Part shown: positions 34,816 to 42,316 of the stretch, piece after piece
Layout: each line of letters starts with the position of its first letter
How positions within the stretch are numbered: position 1 is the first letter of the stretch
From: Ignavibacteria bacterium GWC2_36_12
Lineage (GTDB): Bacteria; Bacteroidota; Ignavibacteria; Ignavibacteriales; Ignavibacteriaceae
Length of the DNA: 44,193 nt
Assembly (NCBI GenBank): GCA_001802795.1
Contig: MGZZ01000002.1
Coordinates: 1 to 44,193 of the forward strand
Direction of reading: 5' to 3'
Notes under the pieces: model-generated
What the model was told of the DNA's origin: nothing
Seen by the model: only the letters and a program-made list of their open reading frames with translations
Databases searched by the model: none
Program-made: the position numbers and the translations under genes

Positions 34816-35049
34816 CAATGTATTTAGAGTCTGTTGCATAACTATTTTGTCGATCCTCTACGAGGATCCGTTTTACTTTGTTCATACTTTTATTACAAAA
34901 ATTGAACATCTACAATGTTCTTTTATAGTTTTGACCTCGTAGAGGTCAAATTATTGTAAAAAAGAATAAATCAAAAAAAATTAATCCTCGTAGAGGATTT
35001 ATAAATTTAATCAACAGAGTTTTGCAACAGAGTCTTTATCCATTGGTAA
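34811..35049. mobile_element. MITE-like element with nested CCTCGTAGAGG palindromes
   Basis: The outer ends, TTAACCAATG...GAGTCTGTTGCA (34811-34838) and the complement of TGCAACAGAGTC...CATTGGTAA (35023-35049), form an imperfect inverted repeat. Its core GTCTGTTGCA parallels GTCTGTTGTA in the element at 32040. Inside are three palindromes sharing CCTC-TAC/GTA-GAGG: 34852-34868, 34933-34947 and 34983-34999. There is no ORF. Together with the 32040 element it defines a family with a common edge and different inner cargo. Confidence 0.75.
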
Positions 35050-37948: not shown

Positions 37949-38418
37949 AATCAGAGAACAGAAGTCAGAGAAAAGAAATTAGAAGGGGGGTTATTAGTGA
38001 GAATAAATTCAGCAAAGGATTTAGATGTTTATAAAAAGGCTTATACATTAGCAATGCAGATATTTCAGATTAGTAGATCATTTCCAAAGGAAGAACGATA
38101 TGCTCTAACGAATCAAATAAGACGTTCTTCACGTTCTGTTTGTTTGAATCTTAGAGAAGCATGGGCAAAACGGCGGTACGAGGCGCATTTCGTGAGTAAG
38201 CTAACTGATTGTGATGGAGAAAATAATGAAACAGATTCATCATTGGATTTTGCAAAAGATTGTGACTATATCAGTAACGAAGAACATCAATTGTTGACTT
38301 CGTTGACAGCAGAGGTAGGCAGAATGCTCGGTTCTATGATTAATAGCCCGGATTCATTCTTAATAAAATCCTCTAACAATTAATTCTGACTTCTGATCTC
38401 TAATCTCTGACTTCAGGA
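37949..38418. mobile_element. IVS-like unit: four-helix-bundle gene flanked by inverted repeats
   Basis: Left arm AATCAGAGAACAGAAGTCAG (from 37949) and right arm CTGACTTCTGATCTCTAAT (38386-38404), extended by CTCTGACTTC (38405-38414), are reverse complements with two mismatches over about 20 bases. They enclose only the gene at 37997. The left arm begins next to the wzi stop and the right arm 2 nt after the small gene's stop. The layout matches the intervening sequences found in some 23S rRNA genes, but this copy is not in an rRNA. Confidence 0.7.
37997..38383 (+). CDS. Four-helix-bundle protein (S23/IVP, bAvd-like)
   Basis: A 128-residue protein: DLDVYKKAYTLAMQIFQISRSFPKEERYALTNQIRRSSRSVCLNLREAWAKRRYEAHF is the strongly conserved core of the 23S rRNA intervening-sequence protein family, whose structural relative bAvd serves diversity-generating retroelements. 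No reverse transcriptase or variable repeat is here. The GTG at 37997 with GAAGGGGGG upstream is preferred to the tracked 37883 start, which overlaps the wzi gene. The function of the family is unknown. Confidence 0.88.
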   Translation: MRINSAKDLDVYKKAYTLAMQIFQISRSFPKEERYALTNQIRRSSRSVCLNLREAWAKRRYEAHFVSKLTDCDGENNETDSSLDFAKDCDYISNEEHQLLTSLTAEVGRMLGSMINSPDSFLIKSSNN

Positions 38419-38721
38419 GACATTAGAGATAACAACCTCATCCCTATCCTTGCTGAGGTCTCACTCCTTCCTAGTAAGAGCATCAGCGATAATCTGCGAA
38501 ATCTGCGAGAAAGAATATTTCACGCAGAAGGTGCGAAAAAAGCTTGCGATGAGGAACTTTGCGGGCAGCTTACTATTTGTATATAATACTTTACAAATAG
38601 TAACACTTATAGAGAAAAAACATCAGCGATAATCTGCGAGATCTGCGAGAAAAAAGATTTCCCGCAGACCTGTCCGCCATAAATTCCATTGAAGGCGGAT
38701 GCGCAGAAAATATAACCCCGT
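38419..38721. repeat. TCAGCGATAATCTGCGAGA word-repeat block
   Basis: AGCATCAGCGATAATCTGCG (38482 on) and CATCAGCGATAATCTGCGAG (38620 on), each followed by ATCTGCGAGAAA and TTTCACGCAGA or TTTCCCGCAGA. A TCCGCC..GGCGGA hairpin sits at 38667-38699. The 60-residue ORF at 38450 is a translation of this block, not a gene. The middle (38570-38610) has TATTTGTATATAATACTTTACAAATA, an inverted repeat. Confidence 0.75.
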
Positions 38722-39126: not shown

Positions 39127-39442
39127 TGATTTGCCCCGAATGGTTAACGGAAAGTAAAATTTTAATGATTTTTTTGATTATAAAAGTAAACAAAAAGTAA
39201 ATTAAAATTCGCCAAAATTTATTTTTTAGTTCAATTTTAAATTAATATATATAGAGATTTCTCATAGTAAAATATCTGCTGAAATTTGCTCTTCGGGTTT
39301 TAAAAAATTTATAAATCAGGTCAGTGTCAGTCAGCGGAAGGTTTGAGAGTGAGTAGAGGATTTATCAGCGTTAATTTGCTGGATCAGCGAGAAAAAAAAA
39401 TTCTGTTCCTGATTCCAACAATTTGTTTGTTAGCAATAAATT
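39127..39442. promoter_or_regulatory. AT-rich leader with AAAGTAAA repeats, then a word repeat
   Basis: AAAGTAAA occurs at 39151, 39183 and 39194 just upstream of the minus-strand HTH gene; spacing and position suggest a binding site. An AT-only stretch follows, then one TCAGCGTTAATTTGCTGGATCAGCG word (39366-39390). No gene here. Confidence 0.4.
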
Positions 39443-39874
39443 AATTGAAGAAATTGCCGGTAAATTCTTATGTGAAATTTTGATACAGTATACCCGGATC
39501 ATGTTTATGTGTCTGAAAATAATACGAATAAAATAACCAGTTACTGGAAAGCAGTCTTATACAAACTGAGTTTATTAAAGTTTAGCTGGATGCCCTCTCA
39601 TCCGACTTTCTTTTCAAAAAGAGACGGATACATTAAGTCCGGTCTGTTCAATATTGGTCTGAGAATTGCCGTCGACTATGATATGATGCTCAGACTACCG
39701 ATATACTATGAAGACACGACAGGCTACGAAGGTGATACACTTGTAAAAATGAGGCTGGGAGGGGTCAGCAACCGGAGTTTGAAACATATGATTATGAAAA
39801 GCCAGAGGATTACATTACGATTAGCAGCAACGGTTTCCCCTCCCGCTCTTTACATTGTTCTTTAAGCTTATAAG
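39443..39874 (+). pseudogene. Decayed GT2 glycosyltransferase C-terminal fragment, copy 1
   Basis: The open frame 39509-39865 reads FSWMPSHPTFFSKRDGYIKSGLFNIGLRIAVDYDMMLRLP and LVKMRLGGVSNRSLKHMIMKS, the acceptor-domain half of WcaA-like GT2 enzymes. The N-terminal catalytic half is missing. After KHMIMKS the homologous reading shifts by one base (EDYITISSNGFPSRSLH), so a frameshift adds to the truncation. A second, worse copy lies at 41848-42258. Confidence 0.82.
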
Positions 39875-39941
39875 AAAGTTAAAGCAGTTCTTCTTATAAA
39901 TATCCCCAAAATTCATTTACAAAAAATTTCTCTATAAATCA

Positions 39942-40030
39942 GCGTTAATCTGCTGGATCTGCGAGAAAATTTTCCCGTAGACCTGTCCGCCATAAATCAG
40001 CGTTAATCTGCGGGATCAGCGAGAAAGTAA
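39942..40030. repeat. Word-repeat block ahead of the GxxExxY gene
   Basis: Two tandem copies of TCAGCGTTAATCTGC-GGATC-GCGAGAAA (39938-39966 and 39997-40026), with a truncated half of the TCCGCC hairpin (39982-39995) between them. The second copy runs to the start codon of the GxxExxY gene. Confidence 0.8.
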
Positions 40031-40033
40031 TTG

Positions 40034-40417
40034 ATGGACAAAATAGAAAATAGTATCTCATACGATATCCGTGGAGCGGCTTTTAAAGTTTATAGTAAAT
40101 TAGGTCCGGGCTTGTTCGAATCTGTTTATGAAACGGCAATGATATACGAGTTAAAAAAGAAGGGGAGAAAAGTCAGGTCACAAGTTGAATTGCCTGTTAT
40201 ATATGAGGAAGAAAAATTAGAGCTGGGTTTTAGGTTGGATCTGTTAGTCGACGAACTGGTAATCATTGAAATTAAATCTGTTGAAGCCCTTGCCCCGGTA
40301 CATTATAAACAACTGCTAACTTATTTAAGATTGACAGGATTAAAACTGGGTCTTCTAATCAACTTTAATACAGACGAGATAGAAAAAGGGATAATAAGAA
40401 TTGTTAATAACCTTTAA
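40034..40417 (+). CDS. GxxExxY protein (PD-(D/E)xK-nuclease-like)
   Basis: 127 residues. GLFESVY (G26, E29, Y32) is the name-giving motif; GFRLDLLVDELVIIEIKS supplies D69, E79 and K81 arranged as a PD-(D/E)xK core. Nothing is established about its function, but the fold suggests nuclease activity. ATG 40034 is preferred over the TTG at 40031. It is enclosed by TCAGCGTTAATCTGCG repeats on both sides, and a mutated copy of its first 12 codons lies at 41808. Confidence 0.88.
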   Translation: MDKIENSISYDIRGAAFKVYSKLGPGLFESVYETAMIYELKKKGRKVRSQVELPVIYEEEKLELGFRLDLLVDELVIIEIKSVEALAPVHYKQLLTYLRLTGLKLGLLINFNTDEIEKGIIRIVNNL

Positions 40418-40555
40418 AAAAGTTTCACGCAGAATCCGCAGAAAAAAGCGCAGAAAAAATCAGCGTTAATCTGCGAGTAAAAGATTTCACGCAGACCTGT
40501 CCGCCATAAATTCCATTGAAGGCGGAGGGCGCAGATAATTTCGCAGAGAATTAAA
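40418..40555. repeat. Word-repeat block after the GxxExxY gene
   Basis: TTTCACGCAGAATCCGCAGAAAA, then ATCAGCGTTAATCTGCGAG, TTTCACGCAGACC and a full TCCGCC..GGCGGA hairpin (40500-40526), ending GCGCAGATAATTTCGCAGAGAA. It touches the TTG start of the next gene, so the repeats form that gene's whole leader. Confidence 0.8.
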
Positions 40556-41668
40556 TTGTCAAACATTACCTACAAAAAAATTTTTTATACAATCCTGATT
40601 TTAGCTTTGCTAATAAGGGTGTACATAGTTTTCTTTTCGGGTTTATCATGGTACGGACCCGATACTGAAAATTATATTAAAATGGCAAAAGCGATAGTCG
40701 ATGGAAACCCTATCTCCTTTTTCCCGAATGGTTTTCCACTGCTTCTCGCCGGTACAATGTTTTTAAGTCCCGGTAATTTTCCGGTACTCATCGTTCTGCT
40801 GAACATTGTTATGCAGATCGCCGCTGTAATCTTAATGGAAAAAATTCTATCCCGGTATAACATTGAAGAAAAAACAAGACTGCTTATTATTTTTATTATC
40901 GCTTTTTATCCTAACCTGGTAAACAATGCAAGGCTTATTCTTACCGAGAGCACCTCACTGTTTTTAATTGTATTAAGCCTGCTGCTTTATACTTACGGGA
41001 GGTACCCCGCATCCGGCTTTGCCGGTTATTTGACTTATACATTCAGACCCTCACTCTTCTTAGTTTTCCCCTTTATAATTATATATGATCTTTTCAGGAG
41101 AAAAAAAATCTCTGCTCTAAAAACAGCTTCCGGTTTTTTAGCAGGACTCCTGATTTTTCTTTCCCTCGAATGGACGGGAGTAGTAGCTTCACCCAGTAGC
41201 TACGAGTATAATGCTCTTGTTGCAATTAATGCTTACGGTTATAAGATAGATTTTCAACTGGAAAATGCAAGTGAGTATGAACTAAAGCACCCGGTAGAAA
41301 CATACTTTAATTTTATTGCAGAGCATCCGGTTGAATATACATTGCAGAGATTTTTATCATTATGGAATTTATGGGGTCCGACAATATATTTTGGTTATAA
41401 CATTACCAGCTTTATGTTGTATGACATAAGGTTCCCGCTTTTTATTCTAGCTGTGCTTGCTTTCCTATTCAGAAATAAAATGGGATATGAGAAGGAGCTT
41501 ATAATATTACTGTCCTTTCCTGTAATCTCGCTTACGCTTATTCATTTCTTTTTCCTTTCTACACTGCGACACCGGACAGTTGCGGAACCGTTTGTAATTG
41601 TTCTTGCCATATTATTCCTGAACTATTTAGTTAAACTGTACAAGTCTTCGAAAATATTTAGCGGATAA
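40556..41668 (+). CDS. GT39-like membrane glycosyltransferase
   Basis: 370 residues with about nine hydrophobic segments. SWYGPDTENYIKMAKAIVDG in the first loop, with its conserved acidic residue, and FFPNGFPLLLAG match the PMT/ArnT-like (GT39/PF13231) family, which uses polyprenyl-phosphate sugars. Its start is TTG abutting the repeat block, so the true 5' end could have been altered. Codons are less AT-rich than in the central cluster. Confidence 0.8.
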   Translation: MSNITYKKIFYTILILALLIRVYIVFFSGLSWYGPDTENYIKMAKAIVDGNPISFFPNGFPLLLAGTMFLSPGNFPVLIVLLNIVMQIAAVILMEKILSRYNIEEKTRLLIIFIIAFYPNLVNNARLILTESTSLFLIVLSLLLYTYGRYPASGFAGYLTYTFRPSLFLVFPFIIIYDLFRRKKISALKTASGFLAGLLIFLSLEWTGVVASPSSYEYNALVAINAYGYKIDFQLENASEYELKHPVETYFNFIAEHPVEYTLQRFLSLWNLWGPTIYFGYNITSFMLYDIRFPLFILAVLAFLFRNKMGYEKELIILLSFPVISLTLIHFFFLSTLRHRTVAEPFVIVLAILFLNYLVKLYKSSKIFSG

Positions 41669-41802
41669 TCACAAGGAAAAAATAATCTGCGATAACCAGC
41701 GAGATCTGCGAGAAAAAAAGTTTCACGCAGATGACGCAGACCTATCCGCCATAAATCAGCGTTAATCTGCGGGATCAGCGAGAAAAAAGATTTCACACAG
41801 AA
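41669..41802. repeat. Word-repeat block, second GxxExxY-type locus
   Basis: AATCTGCGATAACCAGCGAGATC, CTGCGAGAAAAAAAG, TTTCACGCAGATGACGCAGACC, then TCCGCCATAAATCAGCGTTAATC and a truncated hairpin half, as at 39942. It ends in TTTCACACAGAAAATCTACG, which runs into a dead GxxExxY start. Confidence 0.78.
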
Positions 41803-41807
41803 AATCT

Positions 41808-41843
41808 ACGGATAAAATAGAAAACAGTATTTCATATAATGAT
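41808..41843 (+). pseudogene. Dead 5' end of a second GxxExxY gene
   Basis: Twelve codons read (ACG)DKIENSISYND against MDKIENSISYDI in the intact gene; the start codon is ACG instead of ATG and the synonymous differences are GAT/GAC, AAC/AAT and ATT/ATC. Homology then stops at the beginning of the GT2 fragment. The gene was probably deleted after insertion beside the repeats. Confidence 0.75.
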
Positions 41844-41847
41844 TTTA

Positions 41848-42258
41848 AGTCGAAAAAATTGCCGGTAAATTTGTGTCCATAAATATTGATGCTCGTATAC
41901 AGGCATTGTTTAGGCATTTAAAGGTAATATTAATAAAGTAATCAGTTATAGGAAGCCAAGCGAGGATAGTTAAAATCAGCCTGGATGTCGCCCCTTCTAC
42001 ATTTTTTGTAAAAAAAGAGGGATATGATAATTGCGGGTTGCATAATATTGGTCTGAGAATTGTAGCGACTATGTTAAGATGATTAGCTTATTGACATACT
42101 ATGGATACAGGAACGGCTGCATAAATTAAAAACTTGTAAAAATACGCCTGAGAGGGACCGGCAGCAGGAGTTTGAGGAATATGATTACGAAAGCAAAGAG
42201 GAATATTTTGCGCTAAGTAATAAAGGCTTCCCCTCCTGGTGCTCACATTACTTTTAGA
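41848..42258 (+). pseudogene. Decayed GT2 glycosyltransferase fragment, copy 2
   Basis: No long frame is left, but pieces match copy 1 at 39443 in order: GAAAAAATTGCCGGTAAATT, AGCCTGGATG, ATATTGGTCTGAGAATTG, an LVKIRLRGTGSRSLRNMITKAK reading and GGCTTCCCCTCCTGG. Several frameshifts and a degraded middle. Both copies come from one ancestral gene or a local duplication of the whole segment, and both are bounded by the same repeat words. Confidence 0.8.
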
Positions 42259-42316
42259 AAATATAAGAAAGTTGAACCAGTTTTATAAAGTTAACAATTA
42301 ACTAATAAACATAAAC

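Follow-up and report, generated by a model that had tools for sequence, protein, structure and literature searches.

Several described systems join short palindromic repeats to a small gene. RAYT (TnpA-REP), a Y1 HUH transposase, is associated with REP/REPIN sequences (PMC3116915, PMC8266576): cognate palindromes flank its gene, palindromes of these words also lie elsewhere without a gene, and gene and repeats are coupled at the genome level. In the intervening sequences (IVSs) of 23S rRNA, which RNase III excises, an S23p gene is enclosed by terminal inverted repeats (PMC4990558); in these, and in the IVP family (TIGR02436/PF05635), a small gene is looped between inverted repeats. MITEs and other short dispersed palindromes are compact intergenic inverted repeats. 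The locus analysed here, found in a 44,193-nt stretch of DNA (the window) from Ignavibacteria bacterium GWC2_36_12 (contig MGZZ01000002.1), contains a gene coding for a GxxExxY protein. It resembles RAYT/REP in all three respects, but its protein is an unrelated PD-(D/E)XK nuclease and its arms lack a GTAG-type REP, consisting instead of arrays of CRCNRAK words spaced 9–11 nt apart, with a consensus common to several phyla. The GxxExxY unit is thus an analogue of RAYT/REP, not a member of that system. It shares the looped gene with the IVS/IVP elements, and non-rRNA IVP copies in the window's phylum also have word arms; however, the two proteins are unrelated, the IVP word differs from copy to copy while GxxExxY keeps one consensus, and GxxExxY units, like the one in the window, are intergenic among protein genes, not within a 23S rRNA gene, and code for another protein. 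The gene-less copies are as compact and intergenic as MITEs, but have no transposase-type parent, their coupled gene codes for a nuclease, and no target duplication was detected.

The ORF extends from position 40031 to 40417 (+ strand); the ATG of the GxxExxY gene is at 40034, giving a protein of 127 aa (40034–40417). Profile searches assigned it to TIGR04256 (GxxExxY family; 143 bits, cut-off 35) and PF13366 (PDDEXK_3; 143 bits, cut-off 22), and all three motif residues (G26, E29 and Y32) are present. D69, E79 and K81 were invariant in an alignment of 58 relatives, as were G24, G26, E29, Q93 and Y97, and the D..ExK..QxxxY motif can be recognized. Structure prediction from the single sequence was unusable (pLDDT 41); the model built from the 58 GxxExxY sequences was confident (pLDDT 94.5). 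Its best PDB match was modest (4ic1, Cas4 SSO0001; TM 0.58, E 0.008), lambda exonuclease coming next, and the closest viral structure scored higher than the PDB best (TM 0.81). A sequence search of the PDB with the protein returned no match. With the catalytic residues present, and the core fold of the PD-(D/E)XK superfamily in the model, the protein can be modelled as a minimal Cas4/RecB-like nuclease (E29, D69, E79, K81, Q93, Y97), in agreement with an earlier note on this DNA that had read it as a GxxExxY, PD-(D/E)xK-like protein with D69/E79/K81. It has the fold and the D..ExK..QxxxY motif in common with Cas4, lambda exonuclease and RecB-type enzymes, but is only 127 aa long, with neither cluster cysteines nor a partner gene evident, and is encoded alone within a repeat cassette. 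GxxExxY genes were present in 152 of the 297 genomes sampled from the window's phylum, and in many genomes elsewhere. In the portions of the open-access literature available, the family was barely named, with neither a function nor a tie to repeats described; searches of this literature by topic or by the letters of the repeats found nothing describing a GxxExxY-repeat coupling.

The word arrays reach almost to the gene on both sides, as the earlier note had stated: the left one, AATCAGCGTTAATCTGCGGGATCAGCGAGAAA, ends at position 40026, 8 bases upstream of the ATG, and the right one, TTTCACGCAGAATCCGCAGA, begins at 40423, 6 bases past the stop codon. The two sides are mutually inverted (...AATCTGCGGGATCAGCGAGAAA | GxxExxY gene | TTTCACGCAGAATCCGCAG...), which places the gene in a loop flanked by inverted arms; the words of these arms point outward, a minority orientation (23 of 150 loci). 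The inner left arm, AAATCAGCGTTAATCTGCGGGATCAGCGAGAAA (39994–40026), carries the minus-strand words CGCTGAT/CGCAGAT/CGCTGAT, and the inner right arm (40423–40442) is its inverse. Word searches located, all listed on the + strand, a second left arm with two words plus the beginning of an opposite arm (39938–39982), a solo arm (39364–39389), and an arm with a hairpin (41746–41801) ahead of a truncated second GxxExxY gene, of which translation revealed a 5′ remnant comprising the first 11 codons (TDKIENSISYN; 41808–41842). Words and folding also delimited a gene-less palindromic unit on the right (40459–40548; words <<, TTTCACGCAGA, a nested TCCGCC/GGCGGA hairpin, words >>) and three further gene-less palindromes, at 38478–38540 (fold z −2.4), 38618–38707 (with the same nested hairpin; z −5.7) and 41676–41741 (z −5.3), the last two of which folded far better than shuffled sequences in single-strand folds. 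The recurrence of the words at 38.4–41.8 kb, pointed out in the earlier note, was confirmed by a count of strict words, 30 of the 42 in the window lying within 38.4–41.85 kb; the recurrences span positions 38482–38530, 38622–38707, 39364–39389, 39938–39982, 40459–40535 and 41676–41801. A second motif, CTGTCCGCCATAAATTCCATTGAAGGCGGA (the TCCGCC/GGCGGA hairpin, complete or shortened), was nested in the word arrays at four sites (38663–38699, 39976–39993, 40490–40526 and 41735–41752). Positions 39441–39889 and 41852–42282 are two diverged copies (70–75%) of a non-functional-looking segment, each adjoining word arrays; the former resembles, by eye, a C-terminal fragment of a glycosyltransferase, with no family match.

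Across the 3.83-Mb source genome the word pattern gave eight matches, seven of them at 38.5–41.8 kb of the window. The word family is therefore private to this locus; the idea that the window's words are dispersed through their own genome had to be rejected, and the 'dispersed repeats' of the earlier note are local here. By the same token, the words were nearly absent outside the locus, and not equally common elsewhere in the genome, the outcome that the note had named as contrary to its proposal. The genome contains one other GxxExxY gene, whose words belong to a different family and are likewise inverted on the two sides (CACGGATTACACTGATGACACGGATT | gene | AATCCGTGTAGATCAGTGTAATCTGTGTCATCCGTGT). 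Since this second copy also had inverted words, a systematic test of the flanks was carried out. The flank score was defined as the best local alignment between the 250 bp upstream of a gene and the reverse complement of the 250 bp downstream, with a threshold of 15. This score was reached by 81% of 72 GxxExxY loci from the phylum, whereas among 209 control ORFs taken from those loci 2.4% did so (p=2e-29). A cross-phylum set of 78 GxxExxY loci, drawn from a collection of 84,980 species, covered Bacteroidota, Acidobacteria, Cyanobacteria, Planctomycetes, Chloroflexi, several proteobacterial groups, Verrucomicrobia, Lentisphaerae, Nitrospiria, others, and one archaeal MAG; in this set, which represents at least 10 phyla, 90% of the loci reached the threshold compared with 2.4% of 546 controls. 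The comparison with matched control genes, which the earlier note had set in advance as its test, thus revealed a strong enrichment of repeats at GxxExxY loci. Outside Bacteroidota, 29 of 31 GxxExxY loci (94%) had inverted arms. At least two facing words were present on each side at 101 of 150 GxxExxY loci and at 3 of 755 controls. UPF0102, another small PD-(D/E)XK family, and ParE gave no locus reaching the score (0/30 and 0/25, respectively), while 13 of 20 RAYT loci, used as a positive control, did so with their own REPs. In most loci, then, and in at least 10 phyla, the GxxExxY gene and inverted word arms are coupled.

The arms follow a single 7-base consensus, CRCNRAK, over at least 10 phyla, with the variants CACAGAG, CGCAGAG, CACAAAG, CGCAAAG, CACGGAG, CACGGAT and CGCAGAT. 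Each arm consists of two to five word copies 9–11 nt apart (56, 87 and 32 counts for spacings of 9, 10 and 11 nt), and at the 150 loci the words pointed inward, toward the gene, in 112 cases. The two arms of one unit resembled each other (median similarity 18) more than arms of different loci did (median 9), and units within one genome may differ. The word letters clustered on the GxxExxY protein tree, requiring 20, 25 and 7 changes compared with 43.0, 45.2 and 17.9 after shuffling, so gene and arms travel together; an exception is the type-B copy L177, whose words are unlike those of its 75%-identical relative L176. Residue 115 of the protein (window positions 40376–40378) was D, N or E alongside words ending in T, and mostly L, H or R alongside words ending in G. 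This residue is a candidate word-specificity position, although two well-resolved independent pairs provide only a hint of such a role. At one locus (L074; G162:C30:42675-44056), CACAGAT words around the GxxExxY gene form a tandem array with a period of ∼47 bp, which suggests that arms are able to grow by tandem repetition. At another (L113:3174-4271), two near-identical GxxExxY cassettes with words in common lie in tandem ∼740 bp apart.

Gene-less copies of the arrays were sought with a three-word pattern, the same pattern read backwards serving as the control and the counts being tallied by hand from tables. Of the 152 genomes with a GxxExxY gene, 47 contained the pattern (172 matches in all), compared with five of the 145 genomes lacking the gene (five matches; p=7e-11 for the genome counts; p=0.004 when stratified by host family); the backward-read pattern gave four and six matches, respectively. 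Of 20 arrays inspected, 18 were more than 2 kb away from any GxxExxY gene. Compact palindromes of ∼95 bp (>>>><<<< or <<<>>>>) were frequent among the gene-less arrays, others being single arms; the arrays lay between genes in all relative orientations, some at most 10 bp from both neighbours. Gene-less palindromes of CRCNRAK words therefore occur almost only in genomes with GxxExxY.

The occupancy of orthologous sites was surveyed at the junction between the genes for methionine aminopeptidase (map) and a methyltransferase in 30 species of one genus. This junction contained a GxxExxY gene of type A in nine species and a truncated one in one more, while eight species carried a type B gene, ∼40% identical to type A and mostly with CACGAATT-like words. 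The junction was empty in eight species, was 85 bp long and gene-less in one, and was unassessable in one. In the two remaining species (L152 and L165) the gene was replaced by another palindrome beside an arm remnant, and the methyltransferase of L152 is 100% identical in amino acid sequence to that of the filled locus L151. The polA-heptosyltransferase junction was filled in the window's genome and in one sister species; in the other sister the GxxExxY gene was missing and a different palindromic repeat was present. In several other genera (L126, L128, L138, L139 and L147) the junction downstream of polA contained gene-less arrays of other, AAGAGTAAGA-like words, suggestive of a hot spot for such arrays. 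A sister species (G307) had a palindrome of the same words directly after the homologue of window ORF 40556–41668, in a position comparable to that of the palindrome at 41676–41741. When an empty site for the window's own cassette was sought, the sister contig stopped short of the corresponding position. Among congeners, then, one and the same junction may carry the unit, lack it or have re-acquired it independently, the kind of presence/absence at orthologous sites looked for in autonomous transposable elements, and this supports the view that the unit moves, or is repeatedly gained and lost; the empty sites could be losses. Of the mobile unit surmised in the earlier note, the coupling and the gain and loss at orthologous junctions are thus sustained. 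The comparison of filled and empty sites that it had proposed yielded presence/absence and independent occupancy, but left the ends and duplications undefined: the junctions were too diverged for base-by-base alignment, and they revealed neither a target-site duplication nor a clean recent insertion.

The same architecture accommodates other genes. Among loci coding for 23S_rRNA_IVP proteins, which are four-helix bundles, 20 of 27 reached the flank score. The source genome has 20 IVP matches (window positions 37950–38414 and loci L011-L029), mostly bracketed by inverted quasi-periodic arms; 19 own-genome copies mostly had a private word each, for example GTAGAATGTAGAATT, GGAATACTGGAATA or GCATGATTGCATG. 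When 394 kb of this genome were scored, each of the five ORFs with the highest scores, out of 151, was an IVP or GxxExxY gene, and a gene-blind scan for inverted repeats (the 394 kb plus the window) placed IVP and GxxExxY cassettes near the top. At L050:10468-11307, a RelE/ParE toxin gene with a small antitoxin-like ORF (a Phd/RelE-type pair) lies within similar arms (ATTACCGGATTAGCGAATTCGAAAATTTAATTCG). Since IVP proteins, which are not nucleases, and this one pair share the arms, mobilisation need not depend on the encoded protein, and the GxxExxY protein itself could be a passenger.

These results incline us to regard the GxxExxY gene and its words as a single selfish mobile unit that resembles REP/REPIN but has an unrelated nuclease, a reading that we consider reasonably probable. 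The GxxExxY protein would recognize the word array at the DNA level, each word spanning close to a helical turn, and would probably do so on an extruded or single-stranded palindrome. The nuclease may cut or trim at the array, and repair or replication could then copy the unit, with or without the gene, into intergenic sites. The main rival, because IVP genes and one toxin-antitoxin pair occupy the same architecture, is that the cassettes are copied by the replication or repair machinery of the host, through template switching, or else by a trans-acting enzyme, GxxExxY, IVP and a few toxin-antitoxin pairs being selfish cargo in the loop. We consider this rather unlikely, although it would suit the unrelated families found in like arms, the homogenization of arms within a unit expected from template switching, and the different palindrome that L152 and L165 carry where close relatives have the gene. 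A random passenger would not need one word consensus over at least 10 phyla with variants that track the protein lineage; in addition, ParE loci are generally armless and the catalytic residues of GxxExxY are invariant.

Other accounts appear less plausible still. The arms might act in RNA, forming a stem in read-through transcripts that is cut by RNase III as in IVSs, so that the insertion is harmless and the words are kept for pairing; 23S rRNA IVSs have exactly such inverted repeats and are excised in this way (PMC4990558), and the cassettes often lie between co-directional genes. A constraint of this type was nevertheless rejected, since transition mismatches between the arms showed no strand bias (sense strand, 103 G-U and 116 A-C; p=0.42); nor does a pure stem need words spaced by 10 bases with one cross-phylum consensus, or explain gene-less palindromes between genes of all orientations, and we hold this explanation to be improbable. 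It is very improbable that the words are the REPs of a RAYT encoded elsewhere, with GxxExxY as a hitch-hiker. Y1_Tnp genes were indeed present in all 16 of the array-bearing or GxxExxY genomes examined, but 20 Y1_Tnp loci from these genomes were flanked by other, classical palindromes and had 0.35 CRCNRAK words per locus compared with 8.4 at GxxExxY loci. RAYTs were therefore rejected as the cognate enzymes of these words, and the parallel drawn in the earlier note applies to the anatomy of the unit (cognate arms, gene-less palindromes, genome coupling) but not to its protein, which the note had already called unrelated. A palindrome at window positions 34846–35005 (GATCCTCTACGAGGATC; also at L044:15530-15703 and L047:205-458) is similar to the repeat bordering a Y1 (RAYT) transposase gene in the source genome (L371), which thus also harbours a classical REP system. 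Ordinary regulatory DNA (operators, terminators) or low-complexity sequence is an equally remote explanation: the arms do abut the start and stop codons, so that a promoter has no room elsewhere, but both ends are paired in inverted fashion, gene-less copies exist elsewhere, other small genes have no arms, and arms match within a unit, not between units. The controls refute it as a sufficient account, low complexity or chance being excluded as the source of the arms by the same-locus, UPF0102 and ParE loci.

Beyond the single selfish unit that we favour, a wider proposal can be advanced more tentatively, as a possibility that we hold to be somewhat short of an even chance: a cross-phylum mobile family in which a Cas4-like nuclease would read helically spaced words and drive the copying of palindromes with or without the gene, a REP/REPIN-like lifestyle independent of HUH transposases and paralleled by the S23p IVS elements. 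GxxExxY gene-repeat units look like a widespread and little described class. Their coupling gives the GxxExxY family a candidate substrate open to testing in vitro, accounts for the very common 'CACAGAG / CGCAGAG' class of intergenic repeats, and is relevant to a suggestion, reviewed in PMC4990558, that IVSs owe part of their mobility to the ORF that they carry.
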